Assembly (NCBI GenBank): GCA_961205875.1 | Contig: OY540809.1 | Location: forward strand, 27,354,267-27,418,266 | Length of the DNA stretch: 64,000 nt | Reading direction: 5' to 3' | Source of the DNA: Sialis fuliginosa | Taxonomy: Eukaryota > Arthropoda > Insecta > Megaloptera > Sialidae | Shown here: positions 1,211-55,152 of the stretch, in pieces | Layout of the letters: every line of letters starts with the position of its first letter | Numbering within the stretch: position 1 is the first letter of the stretch | Notes under the pieces: generated by a model | What the model saw: the letters and a program-made list of their open reading frames with translations, nothing else | Told to the model about the DNA's origin: nothing | Databases searched by the model: none | Made by a program: the position numbers and the translations under genes

Positions 1211-1214
<4 letters not shown>

Positions 1215-1248: not shown

Positions 1249-1251
<3 letters not shown>

Positions 1252-3887: not shown

Positions 3888-3904
3888 AAAAAAAGACATA
3901 GGTA

Positions 3905-4500
3905 CAGTCAGGGTGCTCGCGATAAATTGGCAAACTTTAGATCTCCTTAATTCATGTGCTTCTTAATAATTTTATGGAATTAGGTATGTTTCTAAGGTTA
4001 TGATTAAACATCGTCGCTTCAGATATAAAGTATTAAATTCTGAGAAAAACCATCATGTCGAAGGAATACTATGTAAAAGCAACCATAATTTCTGAATTGC
4101 GCGCAGGGCGAATTGCTAATGAAGTTGTAGATTTCAATAACATCCTCTTACGTACAGTTTACAACGTGAAGAAGGTGTGATCCTGTCGCCTCACCAACAA
4201 GGGAAATGCATAAGGTACGCAAGGATTGCACAAGTCCATAGTACACAGAATACAGGAATTATCAATGAAGATACTGGAAAGACAATGCGCCCCATAGCAA
4301 GAGAACTGCAGATATCGGATGCAACGTTATCAGATACAGATCGTATGTTCTTAGAAGATTTTAATAAAATTTCGTCAATTTATCGCGCGCAGCCTGTATA
4401 TATAAGTAACAATAATATAATTAAATCAAATTTCATTAAACGTTTAAAAGCTATCTCAAAGAGACCCACAGGGTTTCAAAAGATTATACATTAAAAGAAA
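3905..4500 (+). pseudogene. Tc1/mariner-type transposase remnant, N-terminal part
   Basis: A transposase of this class cuts and pastes its own element in the nucleus. An ATG at 4055 opens 41 codons ending at TGA 4178-4180, including ISELRAGRIANEVVDFN and RTVYNVKKV, which resembles the N-terminal helix-turn-helix of IS630/Tc1/mariner-type proteins. A shifted frame (from 4177) then carries INEDTGKTMRPIARELQ and ISDATL, resembling the second helix-turn-helix, to about 4342. The frame after that (to 4494) no longer looks like transposase, and no DDE/DDD catalytic region is present. A terminal-repeat-like CAGTCAGGGTGCTCGCG follows TA at 3903-3904; no right terminus was found. At least one frameshift and a 3' truncation make this a pseudogene. 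The fold assignment rests on these short motifs only. Confidence 0.6.
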
Positions 4501-4653
4501 GAAATAATTAAATCGTGTTTTCTCTAAATGCTCATTTTTGACATACCTGTATAATGTTCCCTCATACCAAATGTTTATTTATGTATTCTTTACATACTAT
4601 TTTCATAACCAAATGTAAAATTATGAATAATAATTTCAGTTATTAGTGATATA

Positions 4654-5178
4654 CCGGGTGGACCATTTTAACCTTTAATGGACAATAACTCAACCGGTAA
4701 GTGAAATAATAAAAAAAGTTTTGTACAAAAGTTGTTGGGCAAGAAGGGGGACGTACGACCATGACCTTTAATTTGACCTTGACTTTGACCGTAGGGGTTA
4801 TTTGAAGGCCAAATAATTTTTTTCAAATGGAAATGATTTTCGACCCCGGATTCGGAAAGAACGGGAAAATCTACAATAGGATATGTATTATTGATAAGGT
4901 CAAATGTCATGTTTTGACTTTGAAATGACCTCAAAACATGACATTTGACTTTATCAATCATACATAATGATTTTTTCGAATCCGGGGTCGAAAATAAGCG
5001 TTTCCTTTTGAAAAATTTTATTTGGACTTCAAATAACCCCTACGGTCAGTCAAGGTCAAATTCAAGGTAATGGTCGTACGTCCCCCTCCTTGCCCAACAA
5101 CTTTTGCACAAAACTTTTTTTATTATTTCACTTACCGGTCGAGTTATTCTCCATTAAAGGTTAGAATGGTCCACCCGG
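4654..5178. mobile_element. Foldback MITE, TIR CCGGGTGGACCATT, TA target
   Basis: About 250-bp inverted arms meet near 4920. Outer ends are CCGGGTGGACCATTTTAACC and its inverse, each preceded or followed by TA (4652-4653 and 5179-5180). Arms share CCTTTAATGGA, GGACGTACGACC, TAGGGGTTATTTGAAG and CGACCCCGGATTCG with a few mismatches. The centre repeats AAACATGACATTTGAC in both orientations. No protein. TA duplication and long arms fit a Tc1/mariner-mobilised MITE. Confidence 0.85.
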
Positions 5179-5180
5179 TA

Positions 5181-5995
5181 TGTATGTAGATGATATGGCA
5201 ATCATTTAATTTTTATTTATACCTTTTAAAATGGAAATTTGTAAACATGTCTCGACTGTAGTATCATATTTTTAAAAGATACATGATGTATTATAATACT
5301 TCAGTAATTGAATACCAAGTGGGATAAAATGTTTTGTAAACAAGTTAAATAATATGAGTTTACAAAAACATGTTTAACAAGTTAAATAATATGAGATATA
5401 AATAACGAGAACAGTTTATTTGTAAACAAATCAAATATCGAGTGATTTATTTTTTCTCTGAAAAATACTCGAGAGAAGTATTATTATCATTATAAAATTG
5501 ACAAAAAAAAACAGTAAGCAGCTTTAGTTTTTGAAGAGCCCAATTATCGACATAGTGTGTTATGCGTATTGTATACATATTAAGGAGTTTTTTTATTTTT
5601 ATTTTTCCCCATTTGATTAACATGGGAAAAATTAAGTTTTACTTACTTATGTGAGAATAGCTCGTTGAAAAATTATTTTTTGAAAATTTCTCAGAGCAAT
5701 ATTTTGTAGAGAATTAAGTGATTAATTCATAAATCCAGTAATTAAAAGATATTTTTGTTTAAAAAGTATCATAAAAATTGGATTTTACTTTTTATGTTAA
5801 AGTTTAAATATCTTTATATAATAATTATATTTTCATACTCCCAGCTCTTGTCTTAGAATTTGTATGAAAATCAAAAATAAATAAATAGGCTAACAATAAT
5901 CAAAATAATTAATTTCGATACTTTACCTTTCTTGGAAATGAAATGTTTCTTTATATTTCATTAATATGTTTCAAAATATTGAATTATTGATTAGC
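5181..5995. other. AT-rich spacer
   Basis: No coding motif, terminal repeat or paralogue noticed. A direct repeat of AACAAGTTAAATAATATGAG occurs at about 5341-5395. Confidence 0.5.
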
Positions 5996-6728
5996 ATGTG
6001 TCAAAAATATCTATTTATTCGACAAAATAATATTTGAAAGGACGTAACCATAGTGATCTAAATTAATAAAATACTGAAACCGTAAATTATAGAATTCTTT
6101 ATCTACTGTGTTTAATGACAGTTGTATGCTCTGACATCATGGAAACAAAAGACGACTTGAAGAAGATCCTTTTTAGTCTTTTGATGTTCAATCTTAGGTT
6201 TTCATAAAATATTATTAGCCACGATACTGCTCACAAAAATTATCTAACTATTGGTAAAAACCGCATTGAAATCGGTTCAGTAATTACCGAGTCTATAAGT
6301 CACATACAAACGAACATTCATTTTTATATACAGTGTATTCCAAGTTGATTAAGACATAAGAAATTTAACATGAGGACAATTAGTGTTGTAGTAACTTTGG
6401 TCAAATTTAACGATGTGTGATTGGTGCATTTTGAAATGCCTGCCGCCACCAAATTTAATAAAATAGTAATTAGTATTTTGTTTTCAAAATATCTGCCAAA
6501 AAATATTATTATAATTTTATCTAGGATGCTTACTTTAATTTCATTAATTAATTTTATTCTTTATTAAAGTTGAAAACAAAATACTGTTGATTAATTTAAA
6601 ATTTATCAGTTAGATTCGAGGCGGCATTTCAAAATGCACCAATCACACATCGTTAAATTCGATCAAAGGCTATTACAACACTTCTAATTTCCTATGTCTT
6701 AATCAACTTGGAATACACTGTATATTGA
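5996..6728 (-). mobile_element. Helitron-like element, copy 3, split by a MITE
   Basis: Positions about 6018-6330 and 6721-6728 match the 14530-15016 Helitron-like element (AATACTGAAACCGTAAATTA, GACATCATGGAAA, CGCATTGAAATCGGTTCAG, GAACATTCATTTTTATAT). Removing the MITE at 6331-6720 plus one TA rejoins the match. The minus-strand 5' end reads A|TCAATATA, as in the other copy. The CTAG 3' end is not preserved on the left, so this copy is 3'-truncated or diverged. Confidence 0.6.
6331..6720. mobile_element. TA-flanked foldback MITE (CAGTGTATTCC family), copy 1
   Basis: Outer ends CAGTGTATTCCAAGTTGA and its inverse lie between TA dinucleotides (6329-6330, 6721-6722). Arms of about 130 bp share GATTAAGACATA, ACGATGTGTGATTGGTGCA and TTTTGAAATGCC. 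Other copies are 55153-55485 (complete) and 17381-17561 (left half). It sits inside a Helitron-like copy, so it inserted later. Non-coding; Tc1/mariner-type target. Confidence 0.85.
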
Positions 6729-6738
6729 TATAAAGTTT

Positions 6739-6880
6739 TCAAAGATCAACTTTTCTTTTTTCCAAAGCTTACTGGAGTTTTTAATATTACACTCGAGTGA
6801 TTGTTAGATTTGGCTGATAAACATATTTTCGTTTTTCATGGCAACTGTGATTTTTATTCAATAATGAATAAAAACACATT
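6739..6880 (+). repeat. Dispersed 140-bp repeat, copy 1
   Basis: Matches about 59445-59582 (CTTTTTTCCAAAGCTTACT, CACTCGAGTGATT, TTTTTATTCAATAATGAATA). It directly abuts the 2-kb foldback at 6883. Family identity unknown. Confidence 0.6.
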
Positions 6881-6882
6881 TA

Positions 6883-8950
6883 GTGGAGTCATATAACCGA
6901 TTTTTTTTTTGAATAAAACAATCTCTCCCTACAGCGATTTTATGATTTTAAAATGTTCTAGGGATTAAGAGAAGTTCATAACTGAGTTTGTGGATTAATC
7001 CGTTTTCCGCGCGGTACTTTTTTCACGACTTTTCCGAAAAATCATCGATTTTTCCTGTTTGCGGTTCGATTTTTCGCAATTATCTCGGCTTTTACTTGAT
7101 CAATATCGACCAAAAAAAATAGGGACACTCGTAAGGAACCCCTCTATCGATCTGTGGGAGGCGGAATACTAAAACATAATTTATAGCTTCAAAAAAAATT
7201 ACAAACTGCGCATATAACAGATTTTTTATTTTTTCTCAATTACTTTGCAACAAGTATGAATATTTTGATGAAAATAAAGAAAAATGTACCTCTTATGATC
7301 CTTAATAAACTTACCAAGTTTGATTTCAAAATATTCAAAATTGCCGCCAAAATTTATATTTTCAAAAAAAAATTGATTGACGCGCCATCTTTGGGCAAAC
7401 CATCGTAGATCAATTTTGTTTATCTCAAATTGTAGGGTATTTTATGCCCTTTTAAATGATGTATATATACTTCCCATACATTCTGAAACAAAAAAGTTAT
7501 TAAGATTTTTCTGAACTGATTTTTGTTTTTTCGGATTGTTGCCGTAAATACATTTTTCCCGCTTAACTTTCATTATTGTTCAAAACAAATTACAAAATTT
7601 AAAATATTGTTAAAAGATGAGTGTTTGAAACAAATTTAACATATTTTTACTATATTAATTAGTAGGTCGCCCCAAAAATTTTGTAATTTTAAAATTTCAC
7701 CTGCACAAATTAATCAGTTTTTATTGTTCAAAATATATTTTATTTGAAATTTTATTTTTAGTAACGAAAAAAAAAAAATTAAATTCAAAGTTATTTATTA
7801 TAACAACATAAAATTACACACTAACACTCAAAATATATATTTTAACCAAGCCTCATTAGCGTAACAATTATTTCTGAATCATCAGATTAATCAAAAGTTT
7901 CAATTATTATATTATTCATGTGTAATGAAGAATGAAGTCGTTTTTATATGGACCTTCTTCTTTCCTGAAGGACTACCAAATGAAATAAATATCCATAAGC
8001 TAGCTCTCGTACAAGTGAATTTGTTAGAAGACTTAATTTTTAATTTTTTTTTAACCTATTTCATTACTAAAAATAAAAATTTCATGTATGAAAATGTATT
8101 TTTAACAATAAAAACTGATTAATTTGTGCAGGTGAAATTTTAAAATTACAAAATTTTTGGGGCGACCTACTAATTAATATAGTAAAAATATGTTAAATTT
8201 GTTTCAAACACTTAACTTTTAACAATATTTTAAATTTTGTAATTTGTTTTGAACAATAATGAAAGTTAAGCGGGAAAAATGTATTTACGGCAACAATCCG
8301 AAAAAGCAAAAATCAGTTCAGAAAAATCTTAATTACTTTTTTGTTTCAGAATGTATGGGAAGTATATATACATCATTTAAAAGGGCATAAAATACCCTAC
8401 AATTTGAGATAAACAAAATTGATCTACGATGGTTTGCCCAAAGATGGCGCGTCAATCAATTTTTTTTTGAAAATATAAATTTTGGCGGCAATTTTGAATA
8501 TTTTGAAATCAAACTTGGTAGGTTTATTAAGGATCATAAGAGGTACATTTTTCCTGATTTTCATCAAAATATTCATACTTGTTGCAAAGTAATTGAGAAA
8601 AAATAAAAAATCTGTTATATGCGCAGTTTGTAATTTTTTTTGAAGCTATAAATTATGTTATAGTATTCCGCCTCCCACAGATCGATAGAGGGGTTCCTTA
8701 CAAGTGTCCCTATTTTTTTTGGTCGATATTGATCAAGTAAAAGCCGAGATATTTGCGAAAAATCGAACCGCAAACAGGAAAAATCGATGATTTTTCGGAA
8801 AAGTCGTGAAAAAAGTACCGCGCGGAAAACGGATTAATCCACAAACTCAGTTATGGACTTCTCTTGATCCCTAGAACATTTTAAAATCATAAAATCGCTG
8901 TAGGGAGAGATTGTTTTATTCAAAAAAAAAATTCGGTTATATGACTCCAC
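6883..8950. mobile_element. 2.07-kb foldback element with ~870-bp arms, TA target
   Basis: Outer ends GTGGAGTCATATAACCGA and its inverse lie between TA at 6881-6882 and 8951-8952. Arms run from about 6883 to 7775 and from about 8030 to 8950. In about 190 bp compared by eye (6974-7163 against the opposite arm) I count three mismatches. The 250-bp loop (7776-8029) has no match to the arms; the 65-codon frame at 7925-8122 spans loop and arm and is not convincing as a gene. A diverged copy of one terminus is at 22124-22142. A transcript would form a very long hairpin. No transposase is seen, so it is non-autonomous. Confidence 0.88.
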
Positions 8951-8952
8951 TA

Positions 8953-10057
8953 ATTATATAAATATAGAAACCTTTTATATTACCTACTTAATCATTTTTT
9001 AACATATTAGCCCAGACATGTATTAAGTACGATTTAAGACCCTTATTGTTAAAATAACAAAATCATAGAAACAATATTATAAACTAAAATAATATGTACC
9101 TAATCATTTCAGTACAGATGGGTATTAGTGAGATTTAGAGTCCTTTACCCTATTTATGTTAATATTTCATACATTGCCGGCCAGCAGTTAGGTAGTCTAT
9201 ACTCTATACTACTCTATACAGTGCCTAGGAAATGTATATTATTATAATTATTTTATGCATTGCCGGATTTCATGCAGAACACTAGATTCATAACATATCG
9301 TTTATTTATAACACTAGTTGTGTCTCACTGTATACATATTATACAAAGACTTTAATCTATAGAGATGTAGATACCATTGATGACTCCTCTCTTTGTCTTT
9401 GTTGCTCTCTCACTCGGGCTCAAGGGTTTTAACTTTGGCCAAGTCTAAAAGTTTCTCCGCGATGTTCTTGCTACACACAACACCATCACCCCACCCGCCC
9501 CCCCTCCTGCCCCTCACTCCGTGCTATGGCCTGCGGCATATTAAACGTGGTTTATGTGCAAAACCAACAACTTTTTCTTATTCTTTTCGTCCGTTGTTGT
9601 GGTGCTCTGAATGTCCTATATCTTAGCCAGTATTTGATAATTATTGTGCCGACAAAAAGCTTGAGGCAAGATGGTAAATGTTTGATGTTTTTTGTGGGTG
9701 TAAGTTTTTCAATATCTTGTAAAGTTTAATATGTATTTTTTATTTCATAACGAAACAATGCAGTGTATAAAAAGTAATTATTACTTGTATAAAAATAATA
9801 ATTTAAGATCGTTGAAAATTTTAACTAAAATTTTATTTGAATTTAAAAGTAAATAATTATAATTTATATTGATATTTTATTTAAATTGAAAACATTCATT
9901 TAATGGTGAGAGACAGAAAGAGAGTACCACTTCTTTCACTATTCATAAAAATCATGATATGAAAACATACTAGTTCAATAAAAAATCAAAAAAATCAGTT
10001 AACTACGACATTGTGTGTTTTCTCTTGAAATTATTCGAACAAAAATGTACAATTTTT
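8953..10057. other. AT-rich spacer with a GC-richer patch at 9380-9620
   Basis: Mostly featureless. The patch 9380-9620 is pyrimidine- and GC-rich (runs such as CACCCCACCCGCCCCCCC), with two overlapping forward frames (9393-9626, 9526-9729) that show no recognisable domain. CTATACTCTATACTACTCTA at 9197 is a short tandem. A promoter, 5' UTR or TE edge is possible, but nothing decides between them. Confidence 0.45.
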
Positions 10058-11344: not shown

Positions 11345-12061
11345 GAAAATAGTGTAAATAGACTATAGTGACCTTAAAACATCAATTATGTTGAAATTTT
11401 TTGATTTTGATTTTCGGATCGATTACAATAACTTCCAGTTGGGAAGTTAAAAATCACTGTTTTACTAAGCTACCCAAGATTTTTTCACTTAAATAATCAA
11501 GATAATTTTAATAATATGACATGTACCTACATCAGTGATAAAATTAATGAATTATATTCGTTCTTTTTCATACTGACAAAACCTCGAAAAAGAGATTAGT
11601 TCTTTTGTTTATTTCATTCAGCGGTAATGTTCTCGTATGTTTTTCTGGCCAAACATAATTTTTTTTAATACATTATATTAAGAATCATTCGAAAGACGAG
11701 TTCCCGAACAAAAATTTTACTAAACTGATTCAAATGATTCAAGCTACTAAAAATATTCATTTTTCACTTGATAATAAACTATGTTATAATTACGCGTATA
11801 CTTGTATCATCTTTCATCTCGTTCTCATAGAGAGAATGCAGCAAACATTATTACGTGTGTGTAGTATGCACCTTAACACGTGTTTGATGAAACCCAGGTG
11901 TAAATTAAATGTGAACGTGATATAAACAGTACGTACACGTGTACAAACGTGTCTCTGTTGTAAACGTGTTAATGTTAGTATTCCCTTAGAAACATGATAT
12001 GTCTTGAATTGTTGCATAATTACATAATATAATCAACATACATAATATACATAGGTACATA
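11345..12061. other. AT-rich DNA with an ACGTG motif cluster
   Basis: No gene recognised. The only notable content is the ACGTG cluster at 11853-11968, listed separately. Confidence 0.5.
11853..11968. promoter_or_regulatory. Cluster of six ACGTG motifs, two being CACGTG
   Basis: ACGTG at 11853, 11915, 11947 and 11964 plus palindromic CACGTG at 11877-11882 and 11936-11941, all within 116 bp of otherwise AT-rich DNA. CACGTG/ACGTG cores bind bHLH (for example CLOCK/CYCLE, MAX) and bHLH-PAS (HIF/SIM) factors. No adjacent gene start is visible, so a regulatory role is inference. Confidence 0.3.
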
Positions 12062-12063
12062 TA

Positions 12064-13191
12064 CAGGGTGAGTCATATCAGGTGGAATAAACTTGAACCG
12101 TGGATTGAGAAAAATATTTTAAGCAAAAAAGTTTATATGAACATGTGTCCGGAAATTCTTCGTGAGGGAGCTACAGACCTTCGAAGATTTAACCCAAAAT
12201 TATTTTTTATTTAATTTCTAGAGAACCCATTATGCTACAGTTATGAAATTTGATACAGGCTTTGATATTAATAAATGTTATCGATTTCCAGTAGCAAATA
12301 ATAATAATTTAGACCAGGGGTGTGTGGAGCCCGTGGACCCACCGATTTTTATCAAGTATTTTTTTGTTCTTGTAGAAGATTATATGATGCAAAATACACA
12401 AAAATATGTATTGTTTATTTATCATAAGATCAACCGTTTTCGAAAAATATCGAAAAAAGAAAATACTGTAGAATTTTATTTTATATGGATGCTTCAAATT
12501 TCATAAAATAGGTTTATATTATTGTTCTATAATTGAAAATAAGATAAAAAGTTAATATAAATATACCTCCTAACACTTATCATCATAGAGTTATAGCCAG
12601 TTGTATTACTGTTACACGTATTTTGCTAACCTGATTAAAAAACGAAACTATAAATGGCTGTTTGTTGTTAAAAATGCAGTTTTGGGGGTATATTTATATT
12701 AACTTTTCATCTTATTTGTAATCATAGAACAAGAATATAAATTTATTTTGTGTAATTTGAAGCATCCGTATTAAGTAAAATTCTGCAGTACTTTCTTTTT
12801 TTCGATATTTTTCGAAAACGGTTGTTCGTATGACAAATGAACAAAGTATATTTCTGTATATTTTGTATCATATAATCTTCTACAAGAACAAAAAAATACT
12901 TGATAAAAATCGGTGGGTCCACGGGCTCCACACACCCCTGGTCTAAATTATTATTATTTGCTACTGGAAATCGATAACATTTATTAATATCAAAGCCTGT
13001 ATCAAATTTCATAACTGTAGCATAATGGGTTCTCTAGAAATTAAATAAAAACTAATTTTTGGTTAAATCTTCGAAGGTCTGTAGCTCCCTCACGAAGAAT
13101 TTCCGGACACATATTCATATCAACTTTTTTGCTTAAAATATTTTTCTCAATCCACGGTTCAAGTTTGTTGCACCTGATATGACTCACCCTG
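12064..13191. mobile_element. Family C foldback element, 1.13 kb, TA target
   Basis: Ends CAGGGTGAGTCATATCA and its inverse between TA at 12062-12063 and 13192-13193. Arms are about 440-480 bp and include CGAAGAATTTCC, AATGGGTTCTCTAG and TCGATTTCCAGTAGCAAATA-type sequence. The two arms each carry an open frame starting MKFDTGFDINKCYRF (12243-12506, +; 12743-13012, -): these are mirror copies, not two genes. Relatives: a half-copy at 43165-43665 and a composite at 59413-59919. Superfamily probably Tc1/mariner by target site only. Confidence 0.85.
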
Positions 13192-13364
13192 TATATTATG
13201 TTGAAAAATAGTACCAAATAATATGTAAAATTGAATCTATTTATTTGATATATACCTAATATATAAGTATACAATTTTATAAGTTGTACTGGCGTGCTTA
13301 GGTAAAAAGCAGTAAGTGTAAAAAGGAACAAAACGGCCAAGTGCGTGTTGGGCACGTACATGAT

Positions 13365-17561: not shown

Positions 17562-17585
17562 ACCGGGAACTAGAAGGCAGTGAGT

Positions 17586-19853
17586 GAACATAAAAGTATA
17601 GGAGCCAGCCGCAAAATCGGTGTAGATTTAACAACCGTCTGCCGTTGTGGTTTTTTTGAAGTAGGTACTCACTCAGACAAGCTCGGACGATGAGTCCGGT
17701 CCACCAGCTTGTAGGGATTTAATAGTTAGGGCCCACGAAAAATAAACAAAAAAAAATCACGTAACAACCGTTTGAATTAAACGGTTGCTTATAGTAGACC
17801 CCAATTAAAGATGTTTTGGATATACGGCAGAAATTTTTGCGTAGGGGTTTAATTACTGGGGCCTCTCAAAATTTTGACCCAAAAAATCAGATAACAACCG
17901 GACCAGACCTGGTGTAAAATGTTTATTTGGACGTATACTTACATAAAAACATAATGGCAGAATTTTTTATGTAGGGACTTGGGTGCCATAAGGCCTACAA
18001 AGGGCCAGAATTGGGCCCCAATCTTAAAAATGCTGTAAAATTTCTGCCGCGCGGTGTATGCCTTTGATATGATGCCACGTATATAAATGACGCTACTGGC
18101 ACAGGTCAAGTTTCACCCTGCTCAGTGGAGGTGGGGGGGGGGTTCTGTCGTAAAGAAAAGATACAGAATATTTATTTAAATATGGTGTTACGATTTTATG
18201 GGCGCCACATGGTTTGCCCCCGAGGTATACCATGAACCTGGCCTACTGCGAGTTAAAAGGGGCCTGTATGATTGCGAAATGTTCACACTTTACTTAATAG
18301 TAATATTAATCATTAACAATAAAAAAATAAAAAAATAAATAAAAAAATAATTCACCGATTATTTCTCAAAACAAAAAAACCAATACTTGACTTTATTTAA
18401 ATTCTAGCAATCCTTATTCCAAAGTAATAACAAACTTAAAATTAACACTCTGTTGCACCTTAACTCTAACCTAATGCTACACAAATAACCGGGGTGGTTT
18501 TTGGTCGACGCAAAATACCACCTTCACTTTTATCACGTCTCCTATCAGAGACCCCACACTTCCCTTATCAACTCTCACAAGATCTTCACTACACTTATTA
18601 CTATATCCTAGCCCACAACACTATCTTTATTTCGCCTCCAACAGATACACTATCTCCCGTTTTACAAAAACACACAATAAAACAATCAAAACTGCGATCT
18701 ACGCTACACGTGTTGTTCCTACCGGCGCGTGCACTGCTCTTGTTACGGCGCGATCCCGTCCGCTCGCCGTCAAGTTTCAGCCCGCCTCGTCCGCGTGCTA
18801 GTGCGTACGGCTGATTTTTAAGTCCCTGCTCATACGTACTTTTGTATCGTTACAATGAACTATAAAATAGATATATACCCATGGCAGAAGTTTTTATTCA
18901 TGCAGTTTCCCCTCCCAGCTCCCCCAAAAGGTAAATTTGGGTTAGTAATAAAATGCACTAAAAAAATCATAACAAATAGGACTATAGAGGCTTATAAACT
19001 TATAAAATGATAATATATTATTGTATGTAATGTTAGACACCCCCCATCCCCCCCTCACCACCAAGGGAAAATTTGGGATAGTAATAAAAATTAGCAAAAA
19101 ATCATTACAATTAGGTCTATAATGGCTTATGAACTTTTAAAATGATAATATATTATTGTATGAGGGGGGGGGGGGGGGCACGGGGGGTGTCTAACATTAC
19201 ATACAATAGTATATTATCATTTTATAAGTTTATAAGCCTCTATAAGCCTATTTGTTATGATTTTTTTAGTGCTTTTTATTACTAACCCAAATTTACCTTT
19301 TGGGGGAGCTGGGAGGGGAAACTGCATGAATAAAAACTTCTGCCATGGGTATATATCTATTTTATAGTTCATAACAAAGGCATACACCGCGCGGTATTTA
19401 AGATTTTACAGCATTTTTAAGATTGGGGCCCAATTCTGGCCCTTTGTAGGCCTTATGGCACCCAAGTCCCTACATAAAAAATTCTGCCATTATGTTTTTA
19501 TGTAAGTATACGTCCAAATAAACATTTTACACCAGGTCTGGTCCGGTTGTTATCTGATTTTTTTGGGTCGAAATTTTGAGAGGCCCCAGTAATTAAACCC
19601 CTACGCAAAAATTTCTGCCGTATATCCAAAACATCTTTAATTGGGGTCTACTATAAGCAACCGTTTCATTCAAACAGTTGTTACGTGATTTTTTTTTGTT
19701 TATTTTTCGTGGGCCCTAACTATTAAATCCCTACAAGCTGGTGGATCGGACTCATCGTCCGAGCTTGTCTGAGTGAGTACTTCAAAAAAACTACAACGGC
19801 AGACGGTTGTTAAATCTACACCGATTTTGCAGCTGGCTCCTATACTATGTTCA
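17586..19853. mobile_element. 2.27-kb foldback element with an LTR-like insert in one arm
   Basis: Left arm is 17586-18068 continued at 18855-19050; right arm is about 19160-19853. Shared stretches include CAAAATCGGTGTAGATTTAA, CAGACAAGCTCGGACGATGA, ATTGGGGCCCAATCTTAAAA (either orientation) and CCGCGCGGTGTATGCCTTTG. The loop holds a direct repeat of about 140 bp (18926-19020 and 19065-19165, TAAAATGATAATATATTATT) and long G/C runs at 19164-19180. Within the arms, GGCAGAA-TTTTT-GTAGGG recurs as a degenerate internal period. Terminal target duplication is not clear. The ORFs seen in this region are palindrome shadows. Confidence 0.8.
18073..18854. mobile_element. Probable solo LTR, 782 bp, 4-bp duplication ATGA
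   Basis: The other arm of the palindrome reads GCCTTTGTTATGAACTAT without a gap; here the same sequence is split. The insert starts TGCCACGTAT and ends ATCGTTACA (TG...CA, short imperfect inverted ends) and is flanked by ATGA at 18069-18072 and 18855-18858. It has TATATAAAT near its start, AATAAA at about 18678 and a GC-rich last third. These are features of an LTR; a 4-bp duplication suits Ty3/Gypsy. An internal TGTTACGAT at 18186 is an alternative LTR start. The 106-codon frame 18494-18814 is unrecognised. Confidence 0.6.
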
Positions 19854-20429: not shown

Positions 20430-20990
20430 AGAAATAGTGTGTCGGACTCTAACCGACAAAAAAACTCCCCATCACAGGCATTTACCTCCTCGGAATCGCC
20501 GCTTAGCATTACTTCGGGAAGGTGCCTCTGTTAGCTCTCAAAGAGCACCACCTTTATTTACTCACCCTGCTCCGCTTCCGCGTATGCGGTGATACAGCGC
20601 CAGCGATCTTCGCCCGAGAGCATAGACCGTAGAACCGTATCCACCGAAAACCCGCCGGCGGCGATCTCCTCCACGAGTCTGCCCCTCCTTTCGAGCCATC
20701 TGTCGCACTCAAAGAATGTGTGGTTGGCGTCGTCCAGAGGCGAATCCCCGTACTGGCAGGCAGGACTCTCTTCCTTTCCCATCCTGTGCAAGTAGGCATT
20801 GAAGTATCTATGTCCCGTTAAGAACTGGGTTCACCTTCCTATACGTTCGTCCCGTCCACTCGGTCAGATCAACGATCAGCCTCGCAGGTCTCTTCTTCCC
20901 AGCGCCTTTGCCATCGTCGCATGATCAGTTCCCTGGCCTCCGCCGTCGCAGCCTCTTTGCCTAAATCGGCTTTCCCAGTCTTTAAGTCAG
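20430..20990 (-). pseudogene. Non-LTR retrotransposon 3' end: ORF2 C-terminus and 3' UTR
   Basis: ORF2 encodes endonuclease and reverse transcriptase for target-primed copying; only its C-terminal tail is here. Reading leftward on the minus strand: a basic/acidic stretch (EARELIMRRWQRRWEEE, about 20955-20905), then EWTGRTYRKVN, then after a frameshift LTGHRYFNAYLHRMG (about 20826-20782), then SPACQYGDSPLDDANHTFF-ECDRW, a variant of the C-x2-C...H-x4-C knuckle of R1/Jockey-type ORF2 C-termini (the second Cys of the pair is Tyr). The frame ends at about 20558. Downstream, to about 20430, is a UTR with a GTCGGTTAGAGTCCGACA hairpin. The block is markedly GC-richer than its flanks and 5'-truncated. 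At least one frameshift and one stop show it is dead. Confidence 0.8.
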
Positions 20991-31436: not shown

Positions 31437-33615
31437 GTAATTATAGTTCAGGAAACAAAAACACAGCTCCATATAAACTTCTAAATAATTCCAATAGAAA
31501 TGATACTTATACATATTGTTCCCAGTACTTAGATGCATCTTTTCAGAAATATCCCCATATGTAGGTGTTGAGCAAAAAAAAATACACTTATTTTAATTTT
31601 GGTTTTTGGTATTTTTTTTTTAATGAAGTGCTTTCTTAATATGGTTGTATCTTTTGAACTAAAGAACTGACAAACTTATATCAAAAAAATCAAAATGGAG
31701 GTACTCTCTTTAGGTTCTTACATAGGTACATTTGAAAAGAAAATATTATTTTTTGTTTAGTCATTTAAGTGAACCTTTCTGTCCAAAAACCAAGTTTTAA
31801 AATTACCCCGAAAAATTTATTTACCTGCCTGGGAGAAGATATTTAAATTTGCTATACACATTATTAGTCAAGTCAAATAAACATAAATTTAAACAACTAT
31901 CGGAAACTAATTCGGACCAAAATGATTTTTGGTAAAAATGTTCTACTAATGACTCTGGTTATTCTCCAAAATGTTCAAGTTGATCCGAGTTGTGCTACCG
32001 TCGCCATCTTAAAAAAATGGCGAATGGGTCACATTTTTCTACAGTTTTTCGCGTTTTTATCTGAAACCGTACGTTCTACGAAAACATAGCAAATATCTTT
32101 TTTTGTAGAGCATATAATTTTCTTTAAAATAAGATCAAGAACATTGAGATCGGTTAAATATTAATGTTAGGAGAGCTGGGTTTTTGAAAAAATAGTGAAC
32201 GAAATGTAATTTTTTTACAATATTTTCAATTTTATTTCAGTCTCGATACTATTAATTTAGAAATACTGTGCAAAAGTACTAAATAATTCCAATAGTTATG
32301 AAACTTTCCAGGGTTTTAGAATTAGTTGTGAGGAGTATTTTCGTAAAAGTCCCCATTCTTAAGTGTTGAGCCAACCCTGCAATCATGGTTGGAAGAAACA
32401 GCTTAAGAGATTATAAAAACTGAAATAGCACCTGAACGGTACATAGAATCAATTTGCAATTACCCTTAAATGACGCAGAATTAAATTTTGCATAGATAAT
32501 ATACATATATTTTTTTAATTGTGACTAACCTAAGCGGTGATATCGCTGCCATCGTAAATAAATGGCGGACGGGGCACAATTTTTTACGGTTTTTCGCGTT
32601 TTTCTTTGAAAATATTCATTCTACGAACACGATGCAAATAACTTTTTTTGTAGAGAATATAATTTACTATAAAATAAGATCAAGGTTATTAAGATCAGTT
32701 ATGTACTAGCGTAAGGAGCATTGTGACTTTAAAAAAATATAGTTAACTAAAAAACATTTTTTTGCATTTTTTTAGATTTTAGTTGACCCTGATGCTATTT
32801 CGAAATTTTTTTGTAGAATCTTATTCAAATATCAGAAATTTTCGCGTATAATAAAAACCAAAAACATCAAGATTAATGCAGTGGTAACGGAAAAAAGGTT
32901 ATTTTTTTTAACTACTTAATTGCTGTATACCAGAACAGATACGTTCCTATTACAGTATTGATGCAAAAAATTCAAATTATGAACATATTCCATTAAATAT
33001 ATTACAGAGTATTATTATAAGTATTACTTCAACAACATTACAGAGTACATGATGTATTTTTAGAAACGGTTTAAGAAGGAATTTTGGTCCGGATATTTGT
33101 GAAAAATTAACCGATTCACTGCAAATATTTGCGTGTTTATTTAACTATATTAAATAGTTAATTTCAGTAGCCAAACAATATACTTGGATCAATTTTTATA
33201 GGATCGTAACAAGACAAGTACAATAGATCCATCTATTTTATAAACAAAAGGCATACAAATAAAGGAGCAACTAATTCATTAATAGTATAAAACCATAATT
33301 ATTTCATATTCTATAATATTTAATGTTCTTATTACCTTAATGTGAGAACCCCAATCCTTACATTTTAATCCTGTAAAATCGATAAGGCCTTAGTATTCAT
33401 ATTTTAGCCTGAAAATGTTACTATAGTCCAGGGAAGAAAAACACAGCTTAATTTATTAATTAACACATTCAAATGAAGTGATACTTATACATGTTATTAC
33501 ATTATTTTATTTTAATACATAGATGAATATTTTCACAAATATCCCTATATGTATCTAATTGTAAGTGTAGAGCAAAACATTATATCGATATTATTAGTTT
33601 TGGTTTTTAGTGATT
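31437..33615 (+). repeat. Mosaic of direct repeats
   Basis: Two overlapping direct duplications. 31950-32230 recurs at 32515-32770, about 545 bp downstream (TTTTTCGCGTTTTT, TTTTTTGTAGAGMATATAAT, AAAATAAGATCAAG). 31437-31620 recurs at 33415-33615 (AACACAGCT, GTGATACTTATACAT, AATATCCCYATATGTA). 32264-32480 recurs inverted at 34830-35055. No open frame of note. Probably several copies of one unidentified TE family. Confidence 0.6.
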
Positions 33616-36640: not shown

Positions 36641-37020
36641 GCGTTAGAAAAAAATATAAAAAAGTGTCGTTTTACTGAGATCTACATTTTGACACCCCAC
36701 TTGCCTAGATGTCAAAATAAAAAATTCTATGATGCCCCTCCCTATTATTCCAAAATTTAAAATTATATTGCTGACTTTAGTATTTGTCGTTGGTAGTCCC
36801 ACCAAAGCCTCATTACCAAATTTTTTTCATGTAAACAATAGGACAAAATAAAATACTGCTCTTAGCCCCCTACAGGCGCCATTTTTGAGTCATATTCTAC
36901 TAATTGAGATGTACATTTTGACATCTCACACGTTTTGGTATACAATTTTTTTTTTTTTTATTTAATTTAAAGCCCCCAAGCAGGCACCATTTTTGATTTA
37001 GAAAAAAAAATAGAAAGAGA
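36641..37020 (+). repeat. Degenerate tandem repeat
   Basis: ACTGAGATCTACATTTTGAC (about 36676) recurs as TTGAGATGTACATTTTGAC (about 36904), and GCCCCCTACAGGCGCCATTT recurs as GCCCCCAAGCAGGCACCATT about 105 bp on. Family unknown. Confidence 0.5.
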
Positions 37021-37051: not shown

Positions 37052-37385
37052 GCATCGCCGATTACAGTTGTTGCAATCGCACTACTCGCACACGTTGTTT
37101 GCATGTAAGTCGCACTTTATTACTTTTACGGATGATGTATTCATGCGTCTTACAAGATGCTGTCATGGAATGTGTTGTATTTCTAGTTTTTCATTACTTT
37201 GAATAAACCTGGTTCTGAAACTACACGTGAATAGTGTGTTCTATAATTTTTATAGTATTTATATAAAAAAGGGTTGAAGTTTCGAATAATCACTGTTTAA
37301 AACGTTTCTGTATAGAATTTTTATGTAGAATTTTAATAAATAGCGCACTTCCGGCGAGTTCTCTGATTTACCGTGTATTAAAAAT
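37052..37385 (+). repeat. Family G repeat, copy 1 (uninterrupted)
   Basis: GCATCGCCGATT-CAGTTGTTGC, TTTGCATGTAAGTCGCACTT, TTACTTTTACGGATGA-GTAT and TTTGAATAAACCTGGTTCTG match copy 2 (40152 on). AATAAA followed by TGGTTCTGAAACTACACG gives it an LTR or 3'-UTR look, but no TG...CA bounds or primer-binding site were found. GTTTAAAAC at 37295-37303 is the empty counterpart of the foldback insertion site. Confidence 0.6.
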
Positions 37386-39866: not shown

Positions 39867-40008
39867 CCTGACGATGATTCTGTGAATCGAAAGCTTGCGT
39901 TATTAAATTTTCTCAATATGGAATTTCTGACGTTTAGACAATCAAATTGTTTTTATTTTTGAGAAAATTTATAAACGCAAACTTTCAATTCACAGAATCA
40001 TCGTCAGG
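39867..40008. repeat. 142-bp inverted repeat with CTGACGATGATTCTGTGAAT ends
   Basis: CCTGACGATGATTCTGTGAA starts the left arm and its exact inverse ends the right; arms continue to TTTTCTCAA/TTGAGAAAA. Each end holds CTGACGA, a 5-bp stem (GATTC/GAATC on the left; the right copy ends in a wobble), then GAAA. The loop contains TTTCTGACGTTTAGACAATC, which recurs at about 40088. Confidence 0.8.
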
Positions 40009-40151
40009 CTACTAAGAAAGAACAAAATGTGAGAACGATGTCGTTATCTCAACAATATTCATGTTTATAAATTTTATCAATATATAATTCTGACGTTTAA
40101 ACAATCAAGTTGTTTTTAGTGATCATATCTTTAATATATGTGTATACTATG

Positions 40152-41490
40152 GCATCGCCGATTGCAGTTGTTGCACTCGCACTACTTGCACACGTTGTTT
40201 GCATGTAAGTCGCACTTGATTACTTTTACGGATGACGTATTCATGCGTCTTACAAAGATGCTGTCATGGAATGTGTTGTATTTATAGTTTTTCATTACTT
40301 TGAATAAACCTGGTTCTGAAACTACACGTGAATGTATATGTTTTATAATTTTTATATTTTATAGTATTTAAAAGAGTTTAGAATAATCAGTGTTTAAAAC
40401 GGGAAATAATTATTTGAGCAGTTTTTTTAAATATTCGGGCGGTTACATTGGGCAGTTAATAATTCATTTGGGCAGTATTAAAACTTTTTGTGCAGTAATT
40501 AAATCAATTGTGGCAGTAAAATGTAGCAAGTAATATACAAGATTATGGTAAGTTATTTAATCTTACAGCGGCAGTTAAAAACCTACTCGAGCAGTAGATT
40601 AAATAAATGGCCAGTATAATAATTATTTAAGCGGTGAAATAATTGAATTGGGCAGTTAAATAAATAGTTCGGCAGTTAGATAACTATATAGTTCGGCAGT
40701 TCGGTAAAAATCAAGTTGACTTTTGGTTGAAAAAAGCGGCACACGTTTGTTAAAAAAACCTAACCAGGATATTTTTCGGGGGGAGGGGGGAAATTTTTTA
40801 TTGGGACCATTCACATATAATATATATTTTACAAATATATTATATGGAATAACCATTTGGCCCCCCGCTGGTGACAAAAATGCAGGGGTGGCAGGGTTCC
40901 TTTCCCCGTCCCCCTGTATTAAAACAAACAAGAGACCAAATGGTAACACAATATAATATATTGTAAAATATATATATTATATGTTAATGGCCCCCATAAA
41001 AAATCTCCCCCCCCCCCCCACCTAAAAATCCCTTTTTGAACATTATAAAATTTCTAAATTTAAGTTAAAATAAATAAATAATTTTATATAAAGTTTACCC
41101 CCCCACAAAAAAGTACCAGGACTCGGAAAAAGTCCGTCCCGCATTGCCTTCTCAGAAAATAATAGTTACCGCTTACCCCAATATTTCTAAGGGACCGATT
41201 CTGATTTAGTTACTGCTCACGTGTTACTGCCCAATCATTTATTTTACTTTCCAAAGTATTTATTCAACCACCCATTTCATAATATATTACTGCTCGTTTC
41301 CAATTTTTTACTGTTCACATTTTATCACCCAATATGTTATTGAACTTACCATTTTTATTTTAATACTGACTGAAGCTGTAATATATTACCCCCGTTTAAA
41401 TCATAGCCGTTTAAAAAATTTCTGTATACATTTTTTGTGTAGAATTTCAGTAAAGAGAGCACTTCCGGAGAGTTTTCTCATTAACTATGT
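40152..41490 (+). repeat. Family G repeat, copy 2 (interrupted)
   Basis: 40152-40400 and 41394-41490 together match copy 1 at 37052-37385 (TTTGAATAAACCTGGTTCTG; TTTCTGTATA-A-TTTT-TGTAGAATTT; GCACTTCCGG-GAGTT). The break is filled by the 40401-41393 foldback. Confidence 0.7.
40401..41393. mobile_element. Foldback element with tandem-repeat arms
   Basis: The left arm (40401-40705) is about a dozen degenerate 22-30 bp units around GGGCAGTTAAATAA; the right arm (about 41200-41393) has inverse units around TTACTGCCCAATCAT. Inner arms pair AGGATATTTTTCGGGGGGAG with C-rich sequence at about 41005-41030, with AT-rich and G/C-run stretches between. Outer ends are GGGAAATAAT and TATATTACCCCC. Flanks are GTTTAAAAC (40392-40400) and GTTTAAATC (41394-41402), 8 of 9 alike, as for a 9-bp duplication; a third GTTTAAAA at 41411 leaves the right boundary open. 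It resembles the Foldback/Galileo structure described in Drosophila; no transposase. Open frames 40656-40949 and 40723-40956 are mirror artefacts. Confidence 0.65.
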
Positions 41491-41590
41491 ATTATTAAAA
41501 ACTTTTGTTCTATAATTCTCTTTGCACTCATGTAAAAATATCACATATCAGTGATCATTTATTTGTAAAGATTAAAAAAAAAAAAAAGCA

Positions 41591-42727
41591 TTTTAATCAG
41601 TGCTGGATTATCGCACAGGCGTAAGAGGCTTTTACCAGGGGTTTTTTAAATGATTTTTTTTTTATAATTAAATTTTTCTTTAACACACATTTTGAATTTA
41701 TTTTTTTAGTCGTCGATCTGGATTTTTTGTGTGTATTTTATTATAATTAAAAATTCGTGACTTCTTTGTATTCATTTAATTTTCAGTATTTAAAAAATTC
41801 AGTTGGGAACCCAATTTTTTTTCCACGGATATAATCCCTCATTAAACATATGGTGCCAAATTGTATTAATTCATTTTTGTTACCTTTCAATTAAACGTTT
41901 CTTTATATCTTTTGAATATATGTAATTAAATTACATACACATACTTCAAAAGTAAGTTATCATTTAAAATAACTCAATTTATATTTAATTTTTAATTTAT
42001 ATGGGAGGAAGAGACACGTGTCTGTTTTTAAATAATAAATAAACATAAATCACATTTCAGTTGTATTCATTTGAACTTTAAAAAAATATTTTATAAATGG
42101 CCTTTGGCATATTTTCAACTCCATATATTTATAATAAACAAGTTATAGTGATGAATACTATCCATACAGAAAATTAATTAAATAATAGATATTAAAAAAT
42201 TGCACATTTTTCAATTACAAAAAGTGGAAATAACCCATTCTAAAAAAATAGTCTGTTTTTGTACAAAATTATTGTAAACATATTGTACGCGCAAACATAG
42301 GTTTTAATAAATTACACATGCAATAAAAACATCGCACGGTTATGATTTATAAGTTTTTTTAATAACTATTGCGTAAGTTTTTCACTATATTGTTTTTTTT
42401 TCGTGTATTTGGGATAAAAAATTACACGCGAATTCGTTAGCAATATTACTCTCTCCAGGCCTGAAAACAGCTATATAATTTTATTTATTTATGTTTATTT
42501 TATTTATGTATAAAACTTGTTTTTTTTTACAAATTGTAGGTTATGAGGTATTATTTTATATTATTGTTTAATAAAATGCAATAACTTTTTTTGTAGTAAT
42601 TACATTAATAGAATTAATTTTATTTGGGTATATTTGAATATAAAATAATTATTTATGTTAAAAAATGTATTAAATAAAAATTAAAACTCATATACTGGTT
42701 GTACATTTTTAGTCGACACAATGGTCA
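41591..42727. other. AT-rich spacer
   Basis: No gene recognised. CAGTGCTGGATTATCGCACA at 41602 resembles a hAT-type terminus, but no partner end was found. Confidence 0.4.
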
Positions 42728-44210: not shown

Positions 44211-45050
44211 CAGAATGGTCCGGTTTGGGGTACAGATATTTTAAGAGCTGATTCCTTGGCTTATTGTGAGTAAAAAATTGTACAGGAAGGGGGATATATC
44301 TTTAATACCCTCTGAGTTACAGGCTGTTTAAAAACATCCTTCAGATTTACTTACAAACAAAGATTATCTTATAACTTCCAAAGTAACGTAACTAGACAAA
44401 CCAAAATGAGTCAGTTTCATAGGTAATTAACTATTGTATTTTTCAGTATTAGCGTTTTTGCTAGTCGTGTTTCCAAAAGTACCTATGATATGTGGTATTT
44501 TTTATCATTATTTTGGTGTGTCATAATGTTACCTACAAATTCACTATACTAAATTTGGACCTGGGTCTTTTTTTTAAAGTTATACATTTATCTAAATAAT
44601 CCCCAAAGTGACTATTTTGCTACCTAATTTTTTACTTTGTATGGTGAATTTGTAGGTAACATTATTACAATCCAAAATAATGATAAAAAATACCACAAAT
44701 AGGTACTTTGGGGGGAAAATGTCATTTTCATAAAAATTTTCAAAAAAATAAACATATTTTTGACTTTGATGAGCAATAACTCTGAACTGGAAACACGGCT
44801 ACCAATAACGCTAATACTGAAAAATACGTTAGTTAATTACCTATGAAACTGACTCATTGTGGTTTGTCTAGTTACGTTACTTTGGAAGTTATGAAATAAT
44901 CTTTGTAAGTAATACTCTGAAGGAAGTTTTTAAACACTCTGTAGATCAGAGGGTGTTGAAGATAGACCCCACCTTCCCGTATAATTTTTTACTCACAATG
45001 AGCCAAAGAATCAGCTCTTAAAATATCTGTATCAAAAACCGGACCACCTG
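44211..45050. mobile_element. Foldback element, 840 bp, TIR CAGAATGGTCCGGTTT
   Basis: Ends CAGAATGGTCCGGTTT and the near-inverse AAACCGGACCACCTG, with TA on the left (44209-44210) and CA on the right. Arms of about 330 bp mirror AAGAGCTGATTCCTTGGCTT, TCAGAGGGTGTT, CTAGTTACGTTACTTTGGAA and ACCTACAAATTCACTATAC-type sequence. Non-coding. Tc1/mariner-like by its left flank. Confidence 0.82.
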
Positions 45051-50314: not shown

Positions 50315-52353
50315 CCCGTGGCTCCCATAGCAGGTATTTTTTTAATTTAATCTGTCATGGCAAGTGTATTCATTGAAGAAACCTTAATAAAACATTTGAA
50401 AACGGTTTGATGATGTTTAGACTAATAACCCTACTAATATTATTCCTACAAAATAGATTGCAGTCGTTATAATTCCACACATGTATTTTCTATATCTGAA
50501 TAATATTTGTTTTACCGTTTGGAACTATTATTTTAATTTCTATACTATACGTGATATTGTTTTCTAATAATTTGAATTCTGTGTACATTTGTGATAATTT
50601 TCTGTTTGTTATTATATTAAAGATTATTGAAACGAAATTAAATATAAAACTTTAATTAGTATTATAATATAACTTTAAAACGTATTTTTACCCCATCATT
50701 TTAGATTAATCTCATCCCCTCAAAGAAAAAGATTCAAAACTATTTTTGAAAATTAGATAAAAAAGTTTGATTTTTATAATTTTGAGTTCAATATTAATAT
50801 TGCACACCGTGTCTCGTCTAACTTTTAAATAAATCTCCAATAAAATGTATGAAACAAACAAAATATTAAGATAAAAGAAATAATTAAATGTTAAAGTACG
50901 ATTAGCATTAATTTAATATATAACTTTTTCACTTTCTTTTAATAAATTGCCTATAAAATATTTATACAAAGAATCAATAACATTATCAAATAATTCGTCT
51001 CAAACAAAACGTATGATAAATTTACCTGTTGGGGTCTGTTCAAACAAAACTAACACAAAATTGGTCTAATTTATAAAGTAACAAGGCGCAAGGGTCAGCC
51101 AGAGATCTTTTGACATAGGTTTCAATTTGTTAAACGTAAAATTACTACCCACGAAGAGTTTTGTTTGAAGGAGGAGGAGGTTAAAGAAAGAAAGAGAAAG
51201 AGAAGGAGAGAAAGTATGGTTATGTGGTTATAGCCAGTGGCGGGTTTTATATATTTAGTATTATAAGGAAAAATTTATATTTGTACGTGTTTCTAATTAT
51301 ATGAAAAAATAACCTTTCTAGCTAATAATAAAGGATATGATATAAATGTAACATAAATTATAAAAAAATGTTTTTTACAACGTTTTAAATATATATATTT
51401 TTAAATTGAAAGGAATATGTTTTTCGGTTAATTGATGAGAAAGAAAAAAATAATGGAACATAAATTAGATATAGAAAAAAAAACGTTCTACATATTTTCT
51501 TAAAAACTTTTTTAAATCGCATCATTGTAATTATTGTAGATTGGTTTGTAAGTTAGTATAACGATAGTAATGACAGTTTTTTACATATGATTTTATACAG
51601 AAAATTTAAAAAATAATATTTATTTTGAATTTATATATCATTAAAATAAATTATATTTTGAATGTTAGTCAAACAATAAAAAAATATTTTAGAAATCGTA
51701 GAAAAATATCATTTATATTATCCAGAGGTATTATTCCTAACGAAAGTTTAGATTTTATAGATGTTATTTGGGTGAAGAAGGCTGCTAACAGATATTTACC
51801 TATATGTCTAAAGTTTTGACATAGATTGCCCATCAATAACAAAAATATGTGGTTTATATAAAAAAATATTGACGTTTAGTAATACTTAAAAAAACAAAAA
51901 AATAGCTAGGTACCTACCTACCTCAAATATCTAGTGGATCATAAATAAAGATTTTAAAACTTCTTATATAATAGTTTTTTTTTATAGTAATTTTAGCTGC
52001 GAATAAAAATTAAAATTTTCTACAGCCTAGACCTGCCTAGATAAAATAATAAATGGTGCTAAGTGATTTGCTTTTTTGTTGAAAGTATTAAGTTTAAAAG
52101 AATTTTGTTTGATTTAATACTTTATGCAGGTATAAATTATAAAATTATAAATACAATATTAATATTTATCCTTTAATTTTCTTTGTGTACGTTCTAGCTT
52201 GAAAAAGCACACAAAGAAAACATTGAAAATTTAACATTTTGTCTGTAGTAAAGTAAGTCCATAGTATCTACCCTGCAATATTATTTAAAAAAATGTTATA
52301 TCTTAAAATATGACAAATAGTACGTCTGCTTCGTGGCAAATAAAGCCAAAACG
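50315..52353. other. AT-rich spacer with purine-rich run
   Basis: 51165-51213 is a GA-rich run (GAAAGAAAGAGAAAGAGAAG). CAGTGGCGGGTTTTA at 51235 resembles a hAT terminus without a partner. No gene recognised. Confidence 0.45.
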
Positions 52354-54137
52354 CTGCACTTTTTGATTGGGGTATGCCACTTTCTGTGGTCATATATAAT
52401 GTCAAATGAAAGATTTTCAGATAGGGAGCCACTTTAAAATCCGTGTAGAACACTGTTATATCGGCTATTAAAGATGGCCCCCACGGTTTTTATTAAAATG
52501 GCTGTATCTCAGCTCCTAATCATCCGATTTCAATTTTATTTTGTTTATTTTAAAGTTCTTATTAAAAAAAATCTTTTTTATCATTATTCATTTTTCTCTA
52601 AATTTTAAGGGTTCCCCACAATTTTCCGAAATCTGAAGATTTCACTTTTCTTACAAACTTAATTGTTATATAACTTGTTTATTGTGCCCAATAATTTTTT
52701 TTTACTTCATATAAAAAATAAAGATATTTTTTTCTGCGTTCCATTGATAACTAGATAATACTGTTTTAATTAACAATTTCTTTGGAAATAGCGTGTTAAA
52801 CTAAGAAAAATAGATTATTTTTGGATCATTCCAAGTCAAGTTTACCTGTATTGGTTTCTCGGATTCGAGATTTTGATGGAAATGTCCATTTATACCTTCC
52901 CTGAATCAATTCTGACTATTTTTATCATCATGTCTGTCTGTCTGTCTGTGTGTGTATCTGTTTGTCTGTAAACGCTGGAACTCAAAAATGGCAGTACATA
53001 GAGGGGTAAAATTTTATATTAAGGATTAATTTGTTTTAAGAAAAAAAACCAGATGTTTTTAAAACCGGAAACGGATATTTACTCTTGTAATTTTTGTAAT
53101 TATTCGAAATATTTCTGAAACGGTACGTGTTGGAAGAAAATGTTTAAATAATAATTTACTTATAATATTATTATTTATAATTTATGTTATGTTCAATTCC
53201 TCTCAAAAAAAGTTTTTGACGTTATAATCGTTTTTTTCAATTATATTCGAAATGGTTTAAAGCAGAAATAAATTATTGAAATAAAAGTTGTAGAGTACGT
53301 TATTTTCTATAGTTTATGTTCAATTAATTTTTTTGTATCTCTTACCAATTAAAAAAAAATCTTTTTTATTTAATTTTTTTTTTTCCATTTTTTTTAACAA
53401 GTTCATGACAGAATAAAATGTTTATAACAAAAAATGTAGAGAACGTTATTTTCTATAGTTTATGTTCTATAAATTTTTTTATATCTGTCATCAGTAAGCC
53501 AAAATTATTTGTTTTATATTAGTAGATACACGTACATTTTTTTATTGTATAAGAAAGTTCAGTGACATCCATGACAGATTTTTCAATTTTTTAGCTATAC
53601 CATATGAGAAAATTGATCCCAACATAAAATTTCATATGATAAAAGGTAAACTTGACATGGAATGATCCAAAAATAGTATATTTTTCTTAGTTTAACACAC
53701 TTTTTCCAAAGACGTTTTTAATTAAAACAGTATTATCTTGTTATCAATGGAACGCAGAAAAAAATGTTTTTCTTTTTTGTATGATGTAAAAAAATGATAT
53801 TGGGCACAATAAAAAAGTTATATAAAAATTAAGTTCGTAAAAAAAGTAACATTTTCAGATTTTCGAAAATTGTGGGGAACCCTTAAGATTTAGAGAAAAA
53901 TGAATAATGACAAAAAATAATCTACTCAATAAGAACTTTAAAACAAATAAAAGAAAATTGAAATCAGAGGACTAGGAGCTGAGATACAGCCAATTTAATA
54001 AAAACGGTGGGGGCCATCTTTAATAACCGATATAATGGTGTTATACACGGATTTTAAAGTGGCTCCCTATCTGAGAATTATTCTTTTGACCTTATCTATG
54101 AGCACAGAAAGTGTCATACCCCAATCAAAAAGTGCAG
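52354..54137. mobile_element. 1.78-kb foldback element with ~490-bp arms
   Basis: Arms 52354-52847 and 53644-54137 mirror TGCACTTTTTGATTGGGGTA, AGTGGCTCCCTATCTGA, AAAGATGGCCCCCACC/GGTT, AGGGTTCCCCACAATTTTC and TTGGATCATTCCA. The 800-bp loop is a family H copy. Frames at 52268-52453 (-) and 54111-54317 (+) start in the two arms and mirror each other. The terminal duplication is not clear. Confidence 0.82.
52848..53643 (+). mobile_element. Family H element, copy 2, in the foldback loop
   Basis: GAGATTTTGATGGAAATGTC, TCATGTCTGTCTGTCTGTCT, ACGCTGGAACTC and the right end TTGTATAAGAAAGTTCAGTG (about 53544) match copies at 49675-50314 and 56614-57533. Either inserted at the palindrome centre or forms its original core. 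Confidence 0.6.
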
Positions 54138-55152
54138 GTTTTTTTTTATGTACCAGACGTACTAAAACAACAATTGTACAGTGAAAAGTTTAATTTCATT
54201 TTAAAGACAAAAGATAGTATTATTTATTGCCGTCGACAAAAACATAAGACATTTTTTTATCTTGTTGGTAATAAATATGACCAAATCGTGGTGAATAAAT
54301 TTGAGTACCGAATTTGAAACATATCAAAAACCCCAAAATCAACTATATTGGTCTCTAGGACAGTATAAACTTTTTTTTTGTTGATTAGTGTAATTATTTA
54401 CTTATTAAACTCTCTAATATCGAATTTAAACTAAACATTCAATTCAGCAACAAAGTATTTTAATAACACATCGTATTTAAAAATATATAGTTTGTTACTA
54501 CTTTGTTGAAAAAAATACGATGTTGCTGTTTTGTCATTCTGGTCTAAACACGGCATAAGAAATACCGACCCTGTAAACCTGCGGCTACCTTTAGAAGTAT
54601 AGTACCAGGAGTAGCTCAAGAGCAATTAAACGCGAAGGTATGGTCGAGTGTAGACGCCAAAGCCTGGCGTTTACAGAATTAAAAGCGTTTTAACCTATGG
54701 CATTCATTTAATTACTTTGTATGCAATTTTCAGCCAGGCGTATGAACATTTTGTACTTTTTGTTATTTTTTTCCCATGCAATTGTTATTCGACGTGTTTT
54801 CGTGCAATTAGAGAAAGCATTGAATGTTTTTAATTTTTTAAGAATTGTTTTTGTTTGTTAGTAATGTGTAATTTTGTCTAACAAGAGAACAACCTTTTTC
54901 GCGTTTAATCTTAACTTCTATTTAACATTTTTTGAAACTTCAGTGCTACTTTTTTATTGCTTTGTTTATTACTCTCTATATTTCTAAAGTACAAAATCAC
55001 AAAATAATATCATATAAATTTTACCGACATACCTCTTTTCTGACAAAAATAATTAATTTTACGAGTTGAAGAGGCTTACAGCACATTCGTAATTTGTCTT
55101 TTGGATGAAATAGATATAAGTTAACCCAATCGTGCCCACCGTGACATACATA
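54138..55152. other. AT-rich spacer
   Basis: No gene or repeat recognised. 54540-54690 is mildly GC-richer. Confidence 0.45.

Follow-up and report, generated by a model that had tools for sequence, protein, structure and literature searches.

What kind of element interrupts an older repeat at position 40401 of the 64-kb window (the whole stretch of DNA analysed, G000:C1:27354267-27418266, part of a 392-Mb, 20-contig genome that contains many copies of the element), and how may it have arrived there? A sequence-only reading of this locus had proposed an element of the Foldback/Galileo/MULE type. Our results bear out a transposable element with inverted arms of tandem units and a 9-bp target site duplication, but not a Galileo element, and they leave "foldback" as a loose description. 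We consider it likely that the element is a non-autonomous DNA transposon of the Mutator-like (MULE) type and of the type-2 Foldback structural kind, because it belongs to a family of many copies that has fixed ends, a 9-bp duplication, inverted unit arrays, an empty-site paralogue, a variable centre and no recognisable gene.

The boundary analysis started with region 39900-41900, which was read and in which repeats were computed. The interrupted repeat lies on the forward strand, with a left part (40152-40400) that matches 37052-37304 at 90% and a right part (41409-41494) that matches 37295-37380 at 83%. Its uninterrupted copy (37052-37380, forward strand), identified by repeat comparison within the window, represents a paralogous empty site. 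The match to this copy extends through the left flank up to 40401 and resumes in the right flank from 41409, so that 10 bp of the intact copy (37295-37304) are represented in both flanks. The element does, therefore, interrupt a repeat that was previously described as intact at 37052-37385. Based on the ends common to the genome copies and on a multi-copy search, it comprises 1008 bp on the forward strand (40401-41408), with the tips GGGAAATAATTATTT... and ...GTTTAAATCATAGCC; the left end of the span originally suggested (40401-41393) is retained, whereas the right end is corrected to 41408. The left copy of the target site duplication, GTTTAAAAC (40392-40400), was delimited against the uninterrupted paralogue and 28 other two-ended copies, the right copy, GTTTAAAAA (41409-41417), by comparison among genome copies. 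The two agree at 8/9 positions, as had been noted for the flanks, with the copies now placed at 40392 and 41409.

The motif GTTTAAA had been reported three times at the junctions, and the third copy had been ascribed to two events or repair slippage. The copies at 40392 and in the right flank are indeed junction copies, but the one at 41394 recurs inside the right tip of 29 of the 30 right ends among 51 loci. It is the element's own right-tip sequence, so that neither a double event nor slippage is needed. A junction model that keeps the rightmost GTTTAAA, scored even minus base 41409, reaches 62.5 without a 15-bp insertion, versus 56.5 for a model that keeps the copy at 41394 and requires such an insertion.

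Long inverted arms, of up to 915 bp at 97% identity, characterise five further palindromic repeats in the window (6880-8953, 17585-19853, 12060-13197, 44216-45046 and 52348-54142; pairing inferred for 12060-13197). The window is thus rich in foldback-like repeats. A probable LINE remnant also occurs at 20561-20830 on the reverse strand, where a frame of 90 codons matches zf-RVT weakly, below the cut-off (E 0.03).

At least 115 stretches of the genome match the element (best 40 of 304 candidates scored); grouping by eye placed them at 38 sites in addition to the window, all of which were fetched. First-look candidates numbered 144 for the left arm, 118 for the right arm and 185 for the centre, with the best 40 of each scored. 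Among the window and the 38 other copies, 23 passed the two-end threshold, and two copies with the left arm at both ends (L106 and L107) were added, giving a set of 25. A perfect 9-bp duplication flanks 15 of these 25 copies, and 19 match at 8/9 or better. By comparison, at the other lengths from 4 to 13 bp, perfect duplications were seen in two copies at 4 bp and in none at every other length, and mismatched end pairs yielded no perfect 9-mer (0/2000). Four of 11 further loci are two-ended (L134, 9/9; L135, 8/9; L138, 9/9; L145, 1/9), bringing the pooled counts to 17 perfect duplications and 22 at 8/9 or better among 29 copies, at a length within the 8-11 bp of MULE target duplications. The seven copies without a good duplication are L079 (3/9), L090, L093 and L109 (6/9 each), L106 and L107 (7/9 each) and L145 (1/9), with L106 and L107 representing a single insertion event that is counted twice. 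These two, about 327 kb apart on G000:C14, lie in an inverted segmental duplication (97% over 3 kb including the flanks), and their shared copy has left-type arms at both ends. Twenty two-ended copies of 700-1300 bp diverge by 4.7-7.5% from their majority sequence. The genome search for flanked arrays that had been recommended earlier thus returned many copies, most of the two-ended ones with a duplication, rather than copies that lack one or a plain satellite without an inverted partner.

The left arm (40401-40745, forward strand) consists of about 16 degenerate units with the core GGGCAGTWA at a median spacing of 20 bp, as determined by matrix and majority-sequence scans. The right arm (41160-41408, reverse strand), defined by matrix, alignment and majority sequence, contains about 12 inverse units and the 15-nt tip GTTTAAATCATAGCC, which is not a unit; both inner boundaries are approximate. 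In the majority sequence of 20 copies, sites with at least 6/9 matches to the core number 16 in the left and 12 in the right arm, with the cores spaced by 13-25 bp (median 20-21 bp), and the left tip is itself a unit (GGGAAGTAA, 8/9 to the core). At a threshold of 7/9 to GGGCAGTWA, the left arm has 14 sites on one strand versus 1 on the other (mean 0.93, maximum 6 in 2000 base shuffles), and the right arm has 8 versus 0 (mean 0.83, maximum 6 in base shuffles). The earlier description of a left arm with repeated degenerate units was therefore correct in kind, although the cores lie closer together than the 22-30 bp given there for the units. Thirteen left-arm cores, positioned by eye, served to train a unit matrix, which gave 8 inverse matches in the right arm at threshold 6, whereas none of the other 276-bp stretches sampled had more than 4; the left arm itself gave 3, and at threshold 8 the right arm retained 3. 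Other clusters of matrix matches in the window (7101-7500, 8251-8700, 31576-31850 and 36726-36900) were judged by eye to be A/T-rich chance matches or parts of other repeats. Tandem Repeats Finder, which had been suggested as a check on both arms, detected two short arrays only, both in the left arm.

When aligned in inverted orientation, the two arms reach a score of 67, compared with 34 ± 6 for 500 dinucleotide shuffles, which peak at 58, and no more than 56 for 312 other stretches, and 67 was attained in neither set; the same-strand score is 24. Together with the inverse matrix matches, this result confirms the right arm of inverse units that had been predicted. However, after shuffling of the unit order in the right arm, 393 of 1000 gapped alignments, with the units cut by hand, still reached 67, indicating that the arms share units but not unit order. 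The arms thus lack the near-identical mirror-image pairing of a clean foldback, whereas inverted arms with short tandem repeats around a middle domain, the structure of type-2 Foldback elements, are present. A 10.5-bp helical phasing of the cores was unsupported (R 0.27 and 0.12). Among copies, the left-arm cores are slightly less conserved than the spacers (0.956 vs 0.982) and thus give no indication of being under selection; length changes from copy to copy are in some cases unit-sized and in many not.

Between the arms lies a central palindrome (40778-41019), identified by repeat analysis and genome search, which is bounded by G and C tracts and 75% self-complementary; the stretch 40740-41160 that includes it folds strongly (z -7.1). 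L094, a 511-bp copy without the centre and with an incomplete right arm, nevertheless folds more stably than its shuffled versions (z -3.3). Since it retains a perfect 9-bp duplication, insertion did not require the centre, unless this copy lost it at a later stage. The possibility that the palindrome is a separate nested element was dropped: at 11 fetched of the 13 centre places not then linked to close arms, 10 carry at least a partial arm, and only L137 shows the centre alone. Within another family copy, L135, a second foldback-like repeat is nested (531-1805 of the reverse complement), with 561-bp arms at 91%.

Membership in the MULEs is most likely on the basis of the duplication length, the tips, the architecture and an example in the same genome. 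In the window and in most two-ended copies, the first three tip bases read GGG on the left and, as reverse complement, GGC on the right, and they are G/C-rich like those of MULEs in arthropod data (PMC13359780). In Aedes aegypti, all 14 MULE families described in PMC5225508 have 8-9-bp duplications, and 10 of the 12 families with long terminal inverted repeats contain subterminal tandem repeats of 9-15 bp. Muta1, an Aedes aegypti MULE, is named a type-2 Foldback element there and shares with the element an 8-9-bp duplication, long ends made up of a terminal motif and short subterminal tandem repeats (9 copies of 12 bp in Muta1), and many gene-less derivatives, more than 300 putative ones, with varied centres and variable unit number (PMC5225508). 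Each end of Muta1 is an inverted repeat of 145 bp in which spacers of 3-4 bp separate the 12-bp units (PMC5225508), whereas the element has degenerate cores about 20 bp apart (about 16 and 12 per arm), non-collinear arms and only 9-bp duplications. Tm1, a Mutator/Foldback element of Meloidogyne, resembles it in a mostly 9-bp duplication, asymmetric outermost tips, mostly gene-less copies and a variable unit number in the arms, but differs in unit sequence and length (about 14 bp), in an average identity of 93% between the arm parts compared, and in having a copy with a Phantom-like transposase (PMC3169594), of which no counterpart was found between the arms here. Tetris data are given in PMC4079207. 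Judged by the descriptions of Muta1, Tm1 and Rehavkus, the gene-less family looks like a new one of a known kind.

The in-genome example, L126, is a MULE of about 9 kb (G000:C7:18227490-18236441, positions 691-9642 of G000:C7:18226800-18236700) with FLYWCH and MULE domains encoded by an open frame of 482 codons. It is delimited by identical 25-nt tips, GGGTTGAGCACAACTCATACCAAGA, and flanked by a perfect 9-bp duplication, TATTTTATT; its arms are composed of units of about 15 bp at the tip (by eye) and, further in, tandem units of about 106 bp. L126 is thus similar to the element in its GGG tip, perfect 9-bp duplication and tandem-unit arms. However, its tip and unit sequences are different and its arms 97% identical, and by sequence it is not the partner of the family.

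The longest frames of the element (106 and 101 codons, stop to stop) show no match to a Pfam family at E 0.1. A MuDR-like transposase between such arms, for which a search had been advised, was not found among the places scanned. The genome contains 10 matches to the MULE domain PF10551 (16 of 16 candidates scored), and 9.9 kb around each was scanned for arms. No right arm was seen near these loci. A left arm (85%) is present at one of the 10, L133, and its tip is separated by about 2.8 kb from the MULE domain, which is encoded in a 200-codon open piece; the chance expectation for such neighbours is about 0.04, an estimate based on the 144 first-look candidate arms in 392 Mb. We did not accept L133 as an autonomous partner, as it shows no right arm and its left arm continues into the gene-less centre, and it therefore looks like a truncated copy near a MULE domain, a weak lead as partner. 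Similarly, L134 (about 3.5 kb) and L135 (about 2.4 kb), considered as autonomous candidates, proved to be copies split by other sequence. Clusters of matches to the Mutator family PF20700 occur at about 6.65-6.69 Mb on G000:C14 and about 42.19-42.24 Mb on C1, including several open frames of more than 550 codons.

The lack of a transposase between such arms, the cores that are no better conserved than the spacers, the many length changes that are not unit-sized, the seven of 29 two-ended copies without a good duplication and the asymmetric tips all count against the MULE reading, and other assignments have to be weighed. Mobilisation by a PF20700-type transposase, as a non-autonomous member of the MULE-related Rehavkus group, is an unlikely alternative. 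PF20700, which we take to cover Rehavkus, has 83 matches in the genome; none of them, however, comes closer than about 13 kb to the 88 arm or centre places listed, and this list is incomplete. Rehavkus elements, described from arthropods and annelids, combine a 9-bp duplication and inverted repeats of 26-400 bp with a PHD-finger transposase and a minisatellite before the 3' inverted repeat (PMC6446971); their duplication, arthropod hosts and short tandem repeats near one end recall the element, in which, by contrast, both arms are arrays.

It is considerably less probable that the element belongs to the P superfamily, as a Galileo-like element, or is otherwise mobilised by a THAP-domain transposase. 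The core TTSGGCAGT presumably resembles the THAP1 site, with a THAP-like GGCA core, which speaks for this assignment, but the 9-bp duplication is unlike the target duplications of Galileo (7 bp) and P (8 bp), lengths at which none of the 25 copies is perfectly duplicated, versus 15 at 9 bp. The long inverted repeats of Galileo do contain tandem repeats that bear THAP sites, an arrangement of transposase sites that its authors call untested for Foldback and Phantom (PMC3688188). The degenerate units and the scarcity of arrays detected by Tandem Repeats Finder could suggest a satellite or a chance inverted array and no transposon at all, but this notion is already refuted by the fixed ends, dispersed copies, 9-bp duplications and empty-site paralogue, and we give it practically no credence. 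Scans of public collections with the unit pattern returned no related element: 58 matches in genome_contigs were read as chance from their prokaryote titles, and those in viral contigs were arrays of period 12-25 or single matches, with few or no inverse partners. Two further unit patterns had no match in viral contigs and the unit pattern none in the phage collection, and an RT fragment search gave no confirmed relative.

If the element is a MULE derivative, as we favour, a MULE transposase supplied in trans would bind the repeated core at both ends, bring the ends together, cut at the GGG/CC tips and insert the element through a 9-bp staggered cut. In such a scheme, binding strength and specificity may both come from the arrays of weak sites, and the arms could have come to share units without sharing their order as units were gained and lost. 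It is tempting to speculate, although we remain doubtful, that recognition requires the arrays only: the arms may have grown independently by amplification of a tip unit that serves as a putative transposase-binding site, and two inward-facing arrays of 9-bp cores, spaced by about 20 bp, might suffice without a mirror-image inverted repeat.

Collectively, our findings add a well-bounded family to the Mutator/Foldback type. The occurrence of both the element and L126, with their different tandem units, suggests that such arms may arise repeatedly within one host. Moreover, because its arms have units but no unit order in common, the element offers a natural system for testing whether arrays of weak sites can take the place of mirror-image ends.
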